A stretch of DNA of 45,754 bases. Origin: Spirochaetales bacterium (GTDB lineage Bacteria; Spirochaetota; Spirochaetia; DSM-2461). Shown here one piece after another: positions 17,889 to 22,843 of this stretch. The stretch lies in the NCBI GenBank assembly GCA_016936555.1, contig JAFGXR010000101.1, forward strand, positions 1 through 45,754. The letters are read 5' to 3'. The notes beneath the pieces were generated by a model. That model did no database searches, was not told the DNA's origin, and saw only the letters and a program-made list of their open reading frames with translations. A program made the translations under genes and the position numbers. Numbering within the stretch: the first letter of the stretch is position 1; every line of letters begins with the position of its first letter.

Positions 17889-18495
17889 AGGATTAACAAA
17901 ACTGAATCTCGATTACAAGGAAGAGCAGCTGGCTCTTCTTGAAAAATACATCGGTGAAATCGAACTGTGGAACCCCCGTTACGGATTGGTCAACGCCTCG
18001 GGGGATGATCTCGTTATCAGACACATTCTCGACTCGCTGGCCGGAGTTTCCGCTGTCCTTTCCCGGAATCCTTCCCGTCTTGCCGATGTGGGGTCGGGTG
18101 CCGGCCTTCCGGGAATACCCCTGGCTATCATGATGCCCCATGTCGGCGTTACGCTTATAGAGCGGTCCGGTAAAAGAGTCCGCTTTCTGAGAAATGCGGC
18201 GGCTGTTCTGAACCTGAAAAACCTGACAGTGTTGGAAGCGGATCTCAAAGACGTGGAGGAGCGTTTCGATATTGTCACTTTCAGGGCATTTAAACCTGTT
18301 GAGCCGGGAATTATGGCTCTGCTGATGAAAATTCTGGGAGAAAATGGACTCCTGGCCGCCTACAAGGGAAAAATGGAGAATATCCGGGAAGAAATCGAAC
18401 TTGTTAAATCCACGGCCTCGGTGAAAGATATACTCACATTATCGGTACCGGGACTGAAAGAAGAGAGGCATCTCGTTTTCTACGGGAATATTTAA
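17872..18495 (+). CDS. rsmG: 16S rRNA (guanine527-N7)-methyltransferase RsmG (GidB)
   Basis: SAM-dependent methyltransferase acting on G527 of 16S rRNA; loss in other bacteria gives low-level streptomycin resistance. The family motif EIELWNPRYGLVNASG is followed by RHILDSLAG, the SAM loop LADVGSGAGLPGIPLA, LIERSGKRVRFL and FDIVTFRAFKP. Length 207 residues is typical. The start lies inside mnmG (17-base overlap). It converges with the TPR gene, and both stop codons sit in the palindrome TTAA (18492-18495). Confidence 0.96.
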   Translation: MSLLSEGLTKLNLDYKEEQLALLEKYIGEIELWNPRYGLVNASGDDLVIRHILDSLAGVSAVLSRNPSRLADVGSGAGLPGIPLAIMMPHVGVTLIERSGKRVRFLRNAAAVLNLKNLTVLEADLKDVEERFDIVTFRAFKPVEPGIMALLMKILGENGLLAAYKGKMENIREEIELVKSTASVKDILTLSVPGLKEERHLVFYGNI

Positions 18496-19847
18496 ATTGT
18501 ATCGATTTTATTGAGATACTGGATCAGCTTGTCTTTCGAGATCAGGTCGATTAACCTTGCTTCCACCCACTGCTCCGCCGATTCGGTAAATCCGCCGGCG
18601 GAAAAACAGAATCCTCTTCCGGCATGGTGCTCTTTCAGTTTTTCGTAGAGGTCGCGGACCATCATCTGCCCCACCAGGCCGTCGGTCCGGACAAAGCGGT
18701 AGAGAATCAGGTCCTCCCACTTCTGGGCTTTAACCTCCGCCACGATATCGACATATTCCGCATTGGTGAAGGCCACATCAGTAATATTCACTTTGGTTTT
18801 TTTAATGACGATATTGGTTATATTACGGCAGAGAGATACGAAGTCGGTGGCTGGTGCATTGAGATAAACCTGCAGGTTTTTGTTGGAGCTCAGTTCCCTG
18901 TATTTGCGTACCTGAGTCTGCACATCCTTGTATCCCGGGTCGATTCTGGTAATATCCTTGAGCACTTCCAGAGCTTTGTCGAGTCTTCCTTCAGAGCTGT
19001 ATACCCCGGCCAGGCGGTATTTCAGTTCCAGGAGAATTTCAGAAGGAATGTTTTCGTGCTTAAGGCCGATTTCGAAATCGATTATAGCTTTGTCCATTTT
19101 CCGCATCTTTGTGTGTATCGTTCCGGAATAGAGTGCTGATTTCGGACCCCATACAGGATCGGGGCGGAGATGGGTGAATATTTTCAGGGCGTGCTCCACC
19201 CGGCCGGATTCGTTGCAGCTGATGGCAAGGGCGAACAGGGCTTCCTTGTCGTCTGAATGATCACTGACAGCCCTGTTGAGCCGGGGGACAGCCTCTTTGT
19301 ATTTCTTCATTTTGAAATAGCTCATACCGAGGTATTTGATTGATTCGCTATGGTCGGGCTTCATTTTAAGAGCGTAGAGAAGATAGCTTATGGCCTTGTC
19401 GTATTTCTTCATCATAAACTCGATTTTTCCCAGATAGGCATTGGTCTGGAAATCTTCGGGTTTCGTGTTGCGGGCGAGCATCAGGCTTTTATAGGCTTCT
19501 TTGTATATCTTTTCCTCCATGGCGCTGATGCCGTAGCGGAGGTTTATTTTGTATTCGTCTAGATCGGGGTTGACGGCGCAGAGGTCTACCAGCATTCTAT
19601 AGGTTTTCATCGCCTTGCCGAAGTTGTTGTCACTGAAATAGATGTCAGCTATGGCCATCAGGGCTCCGGAGTCCTTGGGATTTGATGCCAGTTTTTTGTT
19701 GGCTTCCTTCAGGATCGTGGTTTTGGTTTTTCCCTGATATTTATCGTTGTTCTTTCCTCCCCCCGAGGATTTGACGAGTACTAAAGTAACGATGGAACCG
19801 ACAATTACTACACCGAGAATCGCCATATATGGTAAGAGGGACATCAT
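18492..19847 (-). CDS. Membrane-anchored TPR protein with degenerate Mrr-like C-terminal domain
   Basis: MMSLLPYMAILGVVIVGSIV gives one N-terminal membrane anchor. About six tetratricopeptide repeats follow (DSGALMAIADIYFSDNNFGKA, HSESIKYLGMSYFKMKKYKEA and others) to about residue 315. The last ~110 residues resemble the Mrr-type restriction endonuclease fold: VDIVAEVK, then MVRDLYEKLKEHHAGRGFCFSAGGFTESAEQWVE and IDLISKDKLIQYL. The position of the catalytic Q/E-x-K appears to hold other residues, so nuclease activity is unlikely. I choose ATG 19847, where a promoter (TTGTCA-17-AATAAT) ends 6 bases upstream. An in-frame ATG at 19907, with AGGA upstream, would add 20 residues but lies over the divergent promoters. 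Shares its stop palindrome with rsmG. Role unknown; probably a scaffold at the membrane. Confidence 0.78.
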   Translation of the reverse strand: MMSLLPYMAILGVVIVGSIVTLVLVKSSGGGKNNDKYQGKTKTTILKEANKKLASNPKDSGALMAIADIYFSDNNFGKAMKTYRMLVDLCAVNPDLDEYKINLRYGISAMEEKIYKEAYKSLMLARNTKPEDFQTNAYLGKIEFMMKKYDKAISYLLYALKMKPDHSESIKYLGMSYFKMKKYKEAVPRLNRAVSDHSDDKEALFALAISCNESGRVEHALKIFTHLRPDPVWGPKSALYSGTIHTKMRKMDKAIIDFEIGLKHENIPSEILLELKYRLAGVYSSEGRLDKALEVLKDITRIDPGYKDVQTQVRKYRELSSNKNLQVYLNAPATDFVSLCRNITNIVIKKTKVNITDVAFTNAEYVDIVAEVKAQKWEDLILYRFVRTDGLVGQMMVRDLYEKLKEHHAGRGFCFSAGGFTESAEQWVEARLIDLISKDKLIQYLNKIDTI

Positions 19848-19853
19848 GAAGTC

Positions 19854-19882
19854 ATTATTGTTCAAATGGCAATGATTGACAA
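19854..19882 (-). promoter_or_regulatory. Predicted promoter of the TPR gene
   Basis: Minus strand TTGTCA (19882-19877), 17 bp, AATAAT (19859-19854), then 6 bases to ATG 19847. Its -35 overlaps the plus-strand TTGACA at 19876-19881. Confidence 0.6.
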
Positions 19883-19904
19883 GTTTTTTCCGCTCCTTTA
19901 GATT
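19876..19904 (+). promoter_or_regulatory. Predicted promoter of the transglycosylase operon
   Basis: Consensus TTGACA (19876-19881), 17 bp, TAGATT (19899-19904). ATG 19919 is 14 bases downstream of the -10, leaving room for a leader of only about 7 bases. An in-frame GTG at 19910 is nearer still. Confidence 0.65.
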
Positions 19905-19918
19905 CATCTGTGTCCTAT

Positions 19919-22018
19919 ATGAAAAAATATTTATCTCTTTTTCTCCTGTATTTTATTTTCTTCTCCTGCCAGGCCTCGGAACACGGTTCCGACAGGGTCT
20001 GGGATCTGGATGTCTCCGCACTGGTCGAATCCCTCCGCATAGGAGATCTCGCTTTTCTCGACAACGTGGATCTTTACCGCATGGACAGAAAAAACCGTCT
20101 CGGCGAAATAAGCCGAATCCGTGAGGGCGGAGCGCTCTATTTTTCTCATTTGCTGGGCGAAAAAGGGGAGAGAGAATGGCAGATCCGTTTCCTCGAAGAA
20201 GAGCTGACCTCAGGCCTCTATAAAGAGGAAGCGGTCCGGGAGCTATACAGTCTTCTTTCGCCGTCCGGAGAGTGGAACAGATTGTCCCGGATTCTTCTCA
20301 ATGCCTTTGACGAAGGAAGGCTCACGGAGGAACTGGTCGATGTGCTCATCGAGGCTCTTTATGAAAGCGGCCAGAGCGAAAAGGCTTTGCAATATGCGGG
20401 AGAACAGCTGCTTACGCTTCCAGCCGCGAAAGCCTATGTAAAAGGACGAGGCGATCTCTCCTCCGATATTTTTCTCCATTATATTTACGGTCGGGCTTCC
20501 TTCTCCGAAGCTGCCGCACTGTTCAGCCTTCTCGAAGCGGAGGACCGGCTCTCGGAATTGTCCGGTTCATCAGCCGCCTATCTTGAGCTGGCCCGGGCTA
20601 TTGTTTCAGGAAATGATTCTCTCGTCGATCAGAAGCTGGATTTATTTTCCATAAGCCCGGGAATGGCTGAGATGTATCCCTCTCTCATATACCGGTTGAG
20701 AATCCCTCAGATGCAATCATCCCGTACCGGGATCTGGGCCGCCAAGCTTTCTGTCATTCCAACCTTTGAAGCTGTTTTCACAGCGGGCCGTTTATACCGT
20801 TCTGAGAAAAAATTCGAAGACGCCGACCTTATGTTTCGCAACGCCCGTGATCTGGCAGGATCTCCTTTTGAAAGAGACCGGTCCTGGTGGTACCTGATGG
20901 ATCTCTACAGTTCAAACAGTACCTACCTTAACGGTTTGATTGAAGAAGCGGCTCCTCTCTGGAGCGATCCCTTTTACTTTTCCGATATCCTGGAAGAGCA
21001 TCTTTCCAGTCTGGCCGCCGAAGCCAGGTGGGATCTGCTGGAAAGAATCTATCCCTTTATCACTCAATACGGAGACAGGGAAACAGCATCGGCATACAGC
21101 TGGGTCCGCTTTCTCAGCCCCCCCTTCCGCCGTGCCGGGGAGGCCGAGAGACGCTTTGTTCTCTCTATTCTGAAAGAAGCTCCGGCCTTCTCCTTTTATA
21201 GTATACTGGGTCATGTCCTCTCGGGAGATGTCATTCTTTTTGCCGGAGCAGCGGTTCCGGCCGAAGAGACTTATGATGACCGCTATATTCAGGGCTTTTT
21301 TCAATTCGGCCTGGATGAAAAAGCTCTGGAAAACAGCCGTGGCCGGGAAGAGGGGCTCAGCAAACCTCTATTAAGAATTCTGAGTGAGAAAGAGAGGGAC
21401 CGGGGAGATTTCCTCCGATCCATTCAGCTCGCCTCCTATCTTATGCCCGATGATGACAGTCCTGTTCCCATAGAAGATCTGAAATTGCGCTACCCCCTGG
21501 TATTTCATGAACAGATCGAGCAGTACTCGGAGGAATACGGTTTTCCTCCGGAAATTCTACAGGGGATCATCCGAACGGAAAGCGCCTTCACTCATGATAT
21601 CATCTCCCATGCCGGGGCTGTGGGGCTCTCCCAGCTGATGCCCGAGACGGCTGCGGACCAGGCCAGGAAGCTCGGAATGGGCGAGCCGGACCTGACTGAT
21701 CCCGAGACAAATATCCGCATCGGCAGTTCCTATATAAGGTGGATTCTCGACAGGCCCTGGAGCGATAATCTCTCGCAGATGCTCGTCGCCTATAACGGAG
21801 GGGGGGGAAACCTGAGAAAATGGAAAAGAATGTTTCCGGGATACAGCGATGAGCTGTTTATCGAGGCTCTGCCCTATAAAGAAACGAGAAATTATGTTAA
21901 AAAGGTGCTAACTTCATCAGTAGTATACGGTGCTGTCTACGGAGAGGATGATCCGGCCGATATCATCGGAAAAATCTATCCCGATTTTGATTCATTGTTA
22001 GAGATTCACGGCAATTAG
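19919..22018 (+). CDS. Lytic transglycosylase lipoprotein (SLT family)
   Basis: Cleaves the MurNAc-GlcNAc bond of peptidoglycan. MKKYLSLFLLYFIFFSC is a lipoprotein signal (Cys17). About 500 residues of helical hairpins follow, as in the superhelical U/L domain of Slt70-type enzymes. The C-terminal SLT domain starts near residue 535: YGFPPEILQGIIRTESAF with catalytic Glu554, then AVGLSQLMPETA, NIRIGSSYIRWIL, VAYNGGGGNLRKW and YKETRNYVKKV. All the family motifs are present. Total 699 residues, close to Slt70. An in-frame GTG at 19910 would add three residues. No Shine-Dalgarno. It leads an operon with uppP (27-base gap) and ftsK, a peptidoglycan and division set. Confidence 0.93.
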   Translation: MKKYLSLFLLYFIFFSCQASEHGSDRVWDLDVSALVESLRIGDLAFLDNVDLYRMDRKNRLGEISRIREGGALYFSHLLGEKGEREWQIRFLEEELTSGLYKEEAVRELYSLLSPSGEWNRLSRILLNAFDEGRLTEELVDVLIEALYESGQSEKALQYAGEQLLTLPAAKAYVKGRGDLSSDIFLHYIYGRASFSEAAALFSLLEAEDRLSELSGSSAAYLELARAIVSGNDSLVDQKLDLFSISPGMAEMYPSLIYRLRIPQMQSSRTGIWAAKLSVIPTFEAVFTAGRLYRSEKKFEDADLMFRNARDLAGSPFERDRSWWYLMDLYSSNSTYLNGLIEEAAPLWSDPFYFSDILEEHLSSLAAEARWDLLERIYPFITQYGDRETASAYSWVRFLSPPFRRAGEAERRFVLSILKEAPAFSFYSILGHVLSGDVILFAGAAVPAEETYDDRYIQGFFQFGLDEKALENSRGREEGLSKPLLRILSEKERDRGDFLRSIQLASYLMPDDDSPVPIEDLKLRYPLVFHEQIEQYSEEYGFPPEILQGIIRTESAFTHDIISHAGAVGLSQLMPETAADQARKLGMGEPDLTDPETNIRIGSSYIRWILDRPWSDNLSQMLVAYNGGGGNLRKWKRMFPGYSDELFIEALPYKETRNYVKKVLTSSVVYGAVYGEDDPADIIGKIYPDFDSLLEIHGN

Positions 22019-22045: not shown

Positions 22046-22843
22046 ATGTCAGTTCTAAAAGCCCTCATTCTCGGCATTATTCAGGGAATCGCCGAATTCC
22101 TGCCCGTTTCAAGCTCGGGCCATCTTCTGGTCACGAGAAATCTTATGGATCTGGGAGATGTCCCTGTTCTTTTTGATGTCCTCCTCCATATTGCGACGCT
22201 TCTTGTTGTTATTTTCGTATTCCGCGAAAGGGTTTTTGTGCTGCTCCGGTCACTCGGGCGCTGGATTATAAGAAAAAGCGATGAGAGCGATAAATACAAT
22301 CTCAATATGATCGTACTGATTCTTTCAGCCACATTTTTTACCGGTATCATCGGGATCGTTATTTCCGAAATGTCATTTTTTGAAAATCCCAAGGTCGTTT
22401 CGGTTTTCTTTCTCGTTACGGCGGCTATTCTCTGGACGACCCGTTATGCCAGGCCGAAAAAGGATTATGATTCTCTGGGATGGAAAGAGGGCGTTCTTCT
22501 GGGGATCGCTCAGGGGTTCGGCGTCATTCCGGGCATTTCCCGCTCGGGAATAACGATTTCCACAGGGCTGATCGGCGGTATCAACCGCGATAAAGCAGGG
22601 GAGATCTCCTTTATCATATCCATTCCCGCCATTCTCGGCGCTCTGCTGCTCGAGCTGAAGGACGGAGGGGCGCTTCTCTCCGAAGTCGGGCTCCTTCCTC
22701 TGGTGGCCGGTTTTGTAATGACTATGGTTGTCGGCTATTTTTCCCTGATCCTGCTCATGAAGCTCATAAAAGGGGGAAGACTTTATTTCTTTTCCTTCTA
22801 TCTGCTGCTCGTCGGGGTTGCGGGGCTCTTCTTTCTTCCCTGA
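22046..22843 (+). CDS. uppP: Undecaprenyl-diphosphate phosphatase
   Basis: Integral membrane enzyme that recycles undecaprenyl pyrophosphate to the monophosphate carrier for wall synthesis; extra copies give bacitracin resistance elsewhere. The active-site signature (Q/E)GxxEFLPVSSSGH is at residues 13-26 (GIAEFLPVSSSGHLL) and the second PGISRSG motif is present in GFGVIPGISRSGITI. About eight membrane segments; 265 residues is normal. AAGGA precedes the ATG by about 6 bases. Between the transglycosylase and ftsK, in a wall-remodelling operon. Confidence 0.97.
   Translation: MSVLKALILGIIQGIAEFLPVSSSGHLLVTRNLMDLGDVPVLFDVLLHIATLLVVIFVFRERVFVLLRSLGRWIIRKSDESDKYNLNMIVLILSATFFTGIIGIVISEMSFFENPKVVSVFFLVTAAILWTTRYARPKKDYDSLGWKEGVLLGIAQGFGVIPGISRSGITISTGLIGGINRDKAGEISFIISIPAILGALLLELKDGGALLSEVGLLPLVAGFVMTMVVGYFSLILLMKLIKGGRLYFFSFYLLLVGVAGLFFLP

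Follow-up and report, generated by a model that had tools for sequence, protein, structure and literature searches.

Candidate divergent promoters sharing a single -35 box between a TPR gene and a BB0259-family transglycosylase gene in Spirochaetia

INTRODUCTION

The sharing of a core element between divergent promoters through the -10 box is established by the relevant passages of two papers (PMC10268837, PMC12825309), and the overlap of divergent core promoters by those of a third (PMC4207663). In the bidirectional promoters of Warman and Grainger, as set out in parts of PMC10268837, the -10 is the shared element and the transcription starts lie 7–25 bp apart, 18 bp being usual. For five E. 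coli promoters of this shared -10 kind, passages of PMC12825309 report that basal activity is too low for the two directions to compete, and that strong activation of one direction represses the other. On plasmid pLS20, in the reading favoured by the authors in the portion of PMC4207663 concerned, the -10 of promoter Pr falls on the -35 of promoter Pc, and the -35 of Pr on the -10 of Pc. Two further reports are close in subject: passages of PMC11661796 deal with -10 and -35 boxes that overlap one another and with bidirectional promoters, those of PMC3247240 deal with two regions carrying overlapping divergent promoters, and neither set of passages describes a shared divergent -35. About 440 leaderless mRNAs are reported for Leptospira in the relevant part of PMC5243855, a paper whose main text does not contain the word ‘divergent’. 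Among titles and opening abstract lines of the open-access literature we found none on divergent promoters with a common -35, subscription papers lying mostly outside this scope.

Here we describe an intergenic region of a Spirochaetales genome where, on the evidence of comparison between genomes, two back-to-back promoters of the housekeeping-sigma type most likely stand on a common -35 heptamer, an arrangement that would have arisen by deletion (‘-35 capture’).

RESULTS

The two genes and their start codons

The window, by which we mean the whole analysed stretch of 45,754 nucleotides, comes from a draft genome of 4.7 Mb in 134 contigs (G000). The complete intergenic promoter unit occupies 71 bp (19848..19918, no strand assigned) between two divergent genes. 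Gene B, on the plus strand at 19919..22018, encodes a lytic transglycosylase of the BB0259 (flagellar assembly) family: its product scores 499.7 bits against NF047373, for which the curated NCBIfam cut-off is 234, and carries, as judged by eye, a lipoprotein-like signal. The next gene in the same direction, at 22046..22843 (+), is uppP-like. BB0259 is treated as a flagellar-assembly transglycosylase family in the part of PMC8517470 that concerns it. Gene A, on the minus strand at 18492..19847, encodes a TPR protein with an N-terminal hydrophobic segment (judged by eye); family matches returned generic TPR and a weak Mrr_cat match and no equivalog above its cut-off, and the protein is a widespread one. 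The Mrr_cat match (PF04471, restriction-endonuclease-like, 1.3e-06) lies at the C terminus and sits oddly beside the N-terminal hydrophobic segment.

The supported start of gene A is ATG 19847 (or 19844, directly following). A start at ATG 19907, by which the promoter would fall inside the gene, was rejected, as this codon is AAG in the sister species G002 and an in-frame stop lies 10 codons before the ATG in two other genomes of the genus, G001 and G003. Sixty of the 72 best TPR matches (E <= about 1e-95) begin at residues 13–30 of the long ORF. The open frame itself extends for 20 codons beyond the supported start (19848-19907), through the promoter, to an ATG that is preceded by a weak AGGA, and gene callers may annotate the wrong start there. 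ATG 19847 is separated from the -10 by 6 nt, which would make the A of this codon the first transcribed base, and the TPR mRNA, with a predicted start at 19847, should be leaderless; an equal gap is found in 39 of 70 orthologue loci. For gene B, ATG 19919 is present in all four genomes of the genus, while the upstream GTG 19910 is GTG in G002 and ATA in G001 and G003.

Promoter anatomy of the intergenic region

The shared heptamer TTGACAA (19876..19882, no strand assigned) supplies TTGACA to gene B on the plus strand and TTGTCA to gene A on the minus strand. Rightwards, TTGACA (19876-19881) is followed after 17 bp by the -10 box TAGATT (19899..19904, +), with a transcription start predicted at about 19911; leftwards, TTGTCA (19882-19877) is followed after 17 bp by the -10 box AATAAT (19859-19854, -), which lies 6 nt ahead of ATG 19847. 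Either -35/-10 pair agrees with the consensus at 10 of 12 positions, and about 64 bp separate the two predicted starts. By its sequence the unit has the layout of a back-to-back divergent sigma-70 pair (outward -35/-10 pairs, spacers of 16–18 bp, divergent genes) and, in sequence geometry only, a shared -35 divergent promoter, with one TTGWCAA and both -10 boxes at 16–18 bp. A T6 tract in the gene B spacer (19884..19889, no strand assigned) is, on the other strand, an A6 tract just upstream of the gene A -35; we take this tract to be UP-element-like, and it may act as an UP element.

A sequence-only reading of this stretch had placed TTGACAA at 19876-19882, with 17-bp spacers to TAGATT and AATAAT, and these positions are exact base for base. 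Its proposal of two divergent promoters with one common -35 gains support from the genome comparison given below, and the near-absent leaders that it expected agree with our predictions of 0 nt for the TPR gene and about 7 nt for the transglycosylase gene.

Taken by themselves, the motifs carry no significance. A motif scan over 5 kb found 6 sites resembling promoters, as against 5.0 +/- 2.0 in shuffled sequence, and with motif density at chance level the case must rest on comparison between genomes. On the opposite strand TTGACAA becomes TTGTCAA, with a single mismatch to the consensus (5/6), which is why the heptamer can serve in either direction and why sharing is built into the -35 consensus itself; the non-trivial part is the second -10 at the correct distance. 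Both the automatic 5/6 match on the other strand and the lack of any excess of promoter-like sites in the scan would suit another account, namely that a single promoter is active and that the other is a by-product of a near-palindromic -35 consensus in AT-rich DNA. We regard this account as very unlikely, since both -10 boxes and their 17-bp spacing from a -35 are found in all four genomes of the genus, even where the -35 boxes are separate. In the gap the same scan also returned a third candidate, a weaker one on the minus strand (TTGCCA-18-CATGAT, 9/12 consensus), whose -10 overlaps the TPR start codon and whose -35 is not kept in G001 and G003; this failure of a mere motif to be kept likewise argues against a single promoter and a chance companion.

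Conservation between sister species

Part of the evidence for two promoters on one heptamer comes from the sister species G002. Over the 71-bp gap the two genomes differ at three positions (19906, 19914 and 19917), all of them in the stretch that separates the -10 of gene B from the ATG, so that the 58 bp from 19848 to 19905 show no difference and TTGACAA is identical. Over both genes, 177 of 313 fourfold sites (57%) have changed (TPR gene, 92 of 178; aligned portion of the transglycosylase gene, 85 of 135); at this rate the chance of zero changes in 51 bp is about 3e-19 by a simple binomial. The transglycosylases are only 60% identical over the aligned part (292/490; 66% over the whole), so that conservation of the promoter far exceeds that of one of the two genes. 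As judged from these sequences, the significance of the putative promoter pair comes from conservation and not from motifs alone. Sequence comparison establishes this conservation, as it does the existence of relatives with separate boxes and the recurrence described below. Both -10 boxes with correctly spaced -35 boxes are found in 4/4 genomes of the genus, AATAAT and TAGATT being identical in all four, and TTGACAAGTTTTTT, which concerns the T6 tract in the gene B spacer, is likewise present in 4/4. The proteins on either side of this one promoter have evolved at strongly uneven rates, the transglycosylases of the two species being 66% identical and the TPR proteins 95%.

Between G000 and G002 conservation of the spacers equals that of the hexamers, beyond what sigma-70 needs, and the block might on that ground be mainly an operator, with a regulator that controls the two genes by binding the conserved spacers, the overlap at the -35 being secondary. 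We think this unlikely. In G001 and G003 the spacers are in part different; moreover, in a unit with a shared -35 each spacer is at the same time the upstream region of the other promoter, so that the layout alone predicts extra spacer constraint.

Separate boxes in congeners and the origin of the fused form

In the congeners G001 and G003 the TPR gene is likewise preceded by AATAAT, and the transglycosylase gene by TTGACAAGTTTTTT with TAGATT, and about 50 extra bases lie between them. These bases contain a -35 belonging to the TPR gene alone (TTGACT, 17 bp from AATAAT), and the copy of TTGACAA stays with gene B; there are thus two -35 boxes, 46 and 44 bp apart in these genomes, each 17 bp from its own -10.

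The alignment is most likely accounted for by a single deletion in the G000/G002 line. Such a deletion, of about 50 bp, would have removed the TPR gene's own -35 and set its -10 at 17 bp from the -35 of gene B. Here the direction of the indel is something that we infer from a comparison of four genomes of the genus. If the direction were the reverse, the fused form would be ancestral in the genus and G001 and G003 would have been split by tandem duplication. Both -35 copies in these two genomes are indeed followed by CAAGTTTT on the plus strand, and local alignments of the copies score 20 and 18; this similarity, however, is not significant in shuffles (P 0.09 and 0.27), a single gap block suffices for the alignment, and TTGAC opens the -35 of the TPR gene in 65 of the 69 orthologue loci. 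An ancestral fused form accordingly has a low probability in our estimation, and we retain the deletion as the preferred account.

TPR loci across the class

The TPR locus set comprises 70 of 72 genomes with a best match of E <= about 1e-95, weaker matches being unused and G004 and G088 (partial) being left out. A candidate TPR promoter was found in 69 of the 70 loci, its -35 being TTGACA in 52 of the 69. In 65/70 loci the distance from the -10 of the top-scoring promoter to the TPR start codon is 5–9 nt; since proximity of a start codon raised the score in the scan, these counts represent an upper view. The promoter of this gene appears to be leaderless class-wide, the start codon following the -10 by 6 nt in 39/70 loci.

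A loose screen for a shared -35 is passed by only eight of 69 loci, a count that weighs against our reading: G000, G002, G071 and G087 with 10/12 matches, G019 and G043 with 9/12 (the latter with an 18-bp spacer) and, more weakly, G080 and G075 with 8/12. Judged by alignment, G019, from another genus, is the clearest further case at the TPR locus. Compared with its congener G024 it lacks 19 bp, among them the last part of the -35 belonging to the partner gene itself, and its spacer; the retained partner -10 (TAGGAT) is separated from the TPR heptamer by 17 bp, and the partner ATG follows 6 nt beyond. In G071 and G087 (family f31) the -35 is common to the TPR gene and the first gene of a set consisting of partner, transglycosylase and uppP. 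At most other TPR loci there are two distinct -35 boxes, which in two cases (L051, L053) abut each other.

Gene order was checked in 13 larger stretches upstream of the TPR gene (L109, L111-L122). A transglycosylase homologue is divergent from the TPR gene in eight (L109, L112-L117, L121), the partner gene, which has a weak Hsp70 match at residues 26–105, was matched before the transglycosylase in seven of these, and an ORF fills its place in L109. A uppP homologue lies beyond the transglycosylase in 6 of the 13, and no transglycosylase was found in five (L111, L118, L119, L120 and L122). The partner was not found in the four genomes of the window's genus by a search that carried no positive control, and the transglycosylase gene may consequently have become the first gene of the set there.

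Recurrence of the geometry

For the wider survey a strict pattern was used, in which the -35 is shared and both start codons lie 6 nt from their own -10 boxes. It gave 36 sites in 32 of 297 genomes of the class, compared with none in 297 for control spacers of either 21 or 13, and the reversed pattern gave zero in all three runs (true spacer, 21 and 13). A further point against our reading is that the site described here is absent from the 36, its gene B -10 being 14 nt from the ATG. The first base of the -10, which the pattern leaves free, is T in 52 of the 72 hexamers from these 36 sites, against a background of 0.325 (P about 6e-12), the sites not all being independent. Twenty of the sites were inspected: in 18, each side carries an ORF of 100 aa or more, a judgement of length by which some (e.g. 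L098, L099 and L102) may be spurious, and two (L094 and L095) fail; by eye, the N termini represent about 10 distinct gene pairs. In a sample of the phylum, the strict pattern at a single spacing was found in 37 of 214 genomes of the class and in 1 of 178 others (G311). When start codons are left out the geometry is hardly enriched, with 17 sites in 26 family genomes versus 13 (N21) and 3 (N12), and 8 (true spacing), 14 (N21) and 15 (N12) for the reversed pattern; enrichment of the bare geometry was dropped as an argument for recurrence, the counts not being clearly above controls and weighing against our reading.

The genome of the window has a second site with the shared -35 geometry (L087, G000:C67:60138-60188), matched in the sister species (L085, G002:C6:29257-29307), where one neighbouring frame is presumably that of a ROK-like repressor and the other that of another gene. 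Among looser sites of the family, in genus g5 (L082, L084) a shared -35 lies between a gene that we take to be ptsI-like and a gene whose product starts MAKKTIDP, each side having a start codon no more than 7 nt from its -10; a pattern match in a third genome, G007, is closely similar.

DISCUSSION

We have described a compact intergenic unit in which one heptamer would serve two housekeeping-sigma promoters, the leftward one for the TPR gene and the rightward one for the transglycosylase gene. Two polymerases cannot, for steric reasons, occupy one -35 box together, and mutual exclusion of polymerase occupancy at the shared -35 is likely. If promoter activity, start points and polymerase competition are as we infer, the unit would act as a splitter, with one polymerase at a time on the box and each binding event assigned to one gene. 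The central base of the heptamer would favour one side; here it is A, favouring gene B (TTGACA) over the TPR gene (TTGTCA). At low firing rates the two outputs would be nearly independent.

The sequence-only reading had gone further and proposed that the two genes are mutually exclusive in initiation. Taken as a switch, this has in its favour that one -35 cannot hold two holoenzymes, and that on plasmid pLS20 overlapping divergent promoters form a switch together with a regulator, according to the portion of PMC4207663 on this system. We nevertheless consider a switch improbable at the present locus, where neither flanking gene is a regulator by family matches; and the five E. coli bidirectional promoters lack competition at basal activity in the account given in passages of PMC12825309. 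As these E. coli cases illustrate, exclusion of binding need not bring exclusion of expression, and a modest ceiling or an effect on noise is as likely as exclusion. Our working hypothesis is a splitter.

It is quite possible, if still somewhat doubtful, that divergent promoters with a shared -35 constitute a recurrent and compact promoter class of Spirochaetia, born of deletion, sharing the heptamer and equipped with a polarity lever. If so, the A or T at the centre of the heptamer would set the side with the perfect -35 and serve as a one-base lever of polarity, and with both genes leaderless the control region of two genes would shrink to about 63–71 bp. A deletion could then lend a promoter the -35 of its neighbour, and sister species with separate and fused forms would provide a natural experiment on promoter competition, expression and noise. 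At the locus described here, the unit pairs a flagellar-assembly transglycosylase of the BB0259 family with a widespread TPR protein.

In relation to the systems described so far, the candidate unit resembles the bidirectional promoters of Warman and Grainger, as presented in parts of PMC12825309 and PMC10268837, in that a near-symmetric core element is read both ways and polymerase binding one way excludes the other. It differs in that the -35 is shared, the -10 boxes face outwards and the starts, which are predictions, are about 64 bp apart, placing it outside a category defined by a shared -10 and starts at 7–25 bp. With Pc and Pr of pLS20 it has in common overlapping divergent core promoters, of which, as argued in the relevant portion of PMC4207663, one polymerase binds; that pair is run by the regulator Rco, whereas the pair described here is back-to-back on a common -35 and has no known regulator. 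The predicted transcripts would be comparable to the leaderless mRNAs of Leptospira, for which part of PMC5243855 describes transcript starts within 10 nt of the start codon. Ordinary back-to-back divergent promoters, the state seen in G001 and G003, likewise consist of two outward sigma-70 promoters in a short gap, but each has its own -35, whereas here the two -35 boxes are one heptamer. The bidirectional promoters of these papers are described by way of -10 symmetry; a shared -35 would be a second route to symmetry, predicting that one mutation affects two genes and that polymerase makes its choice at -35 recognition. As judged by its sequence, a shared -35 with outward -10 boxes appears to be a new form of overlapping divergent promoters.
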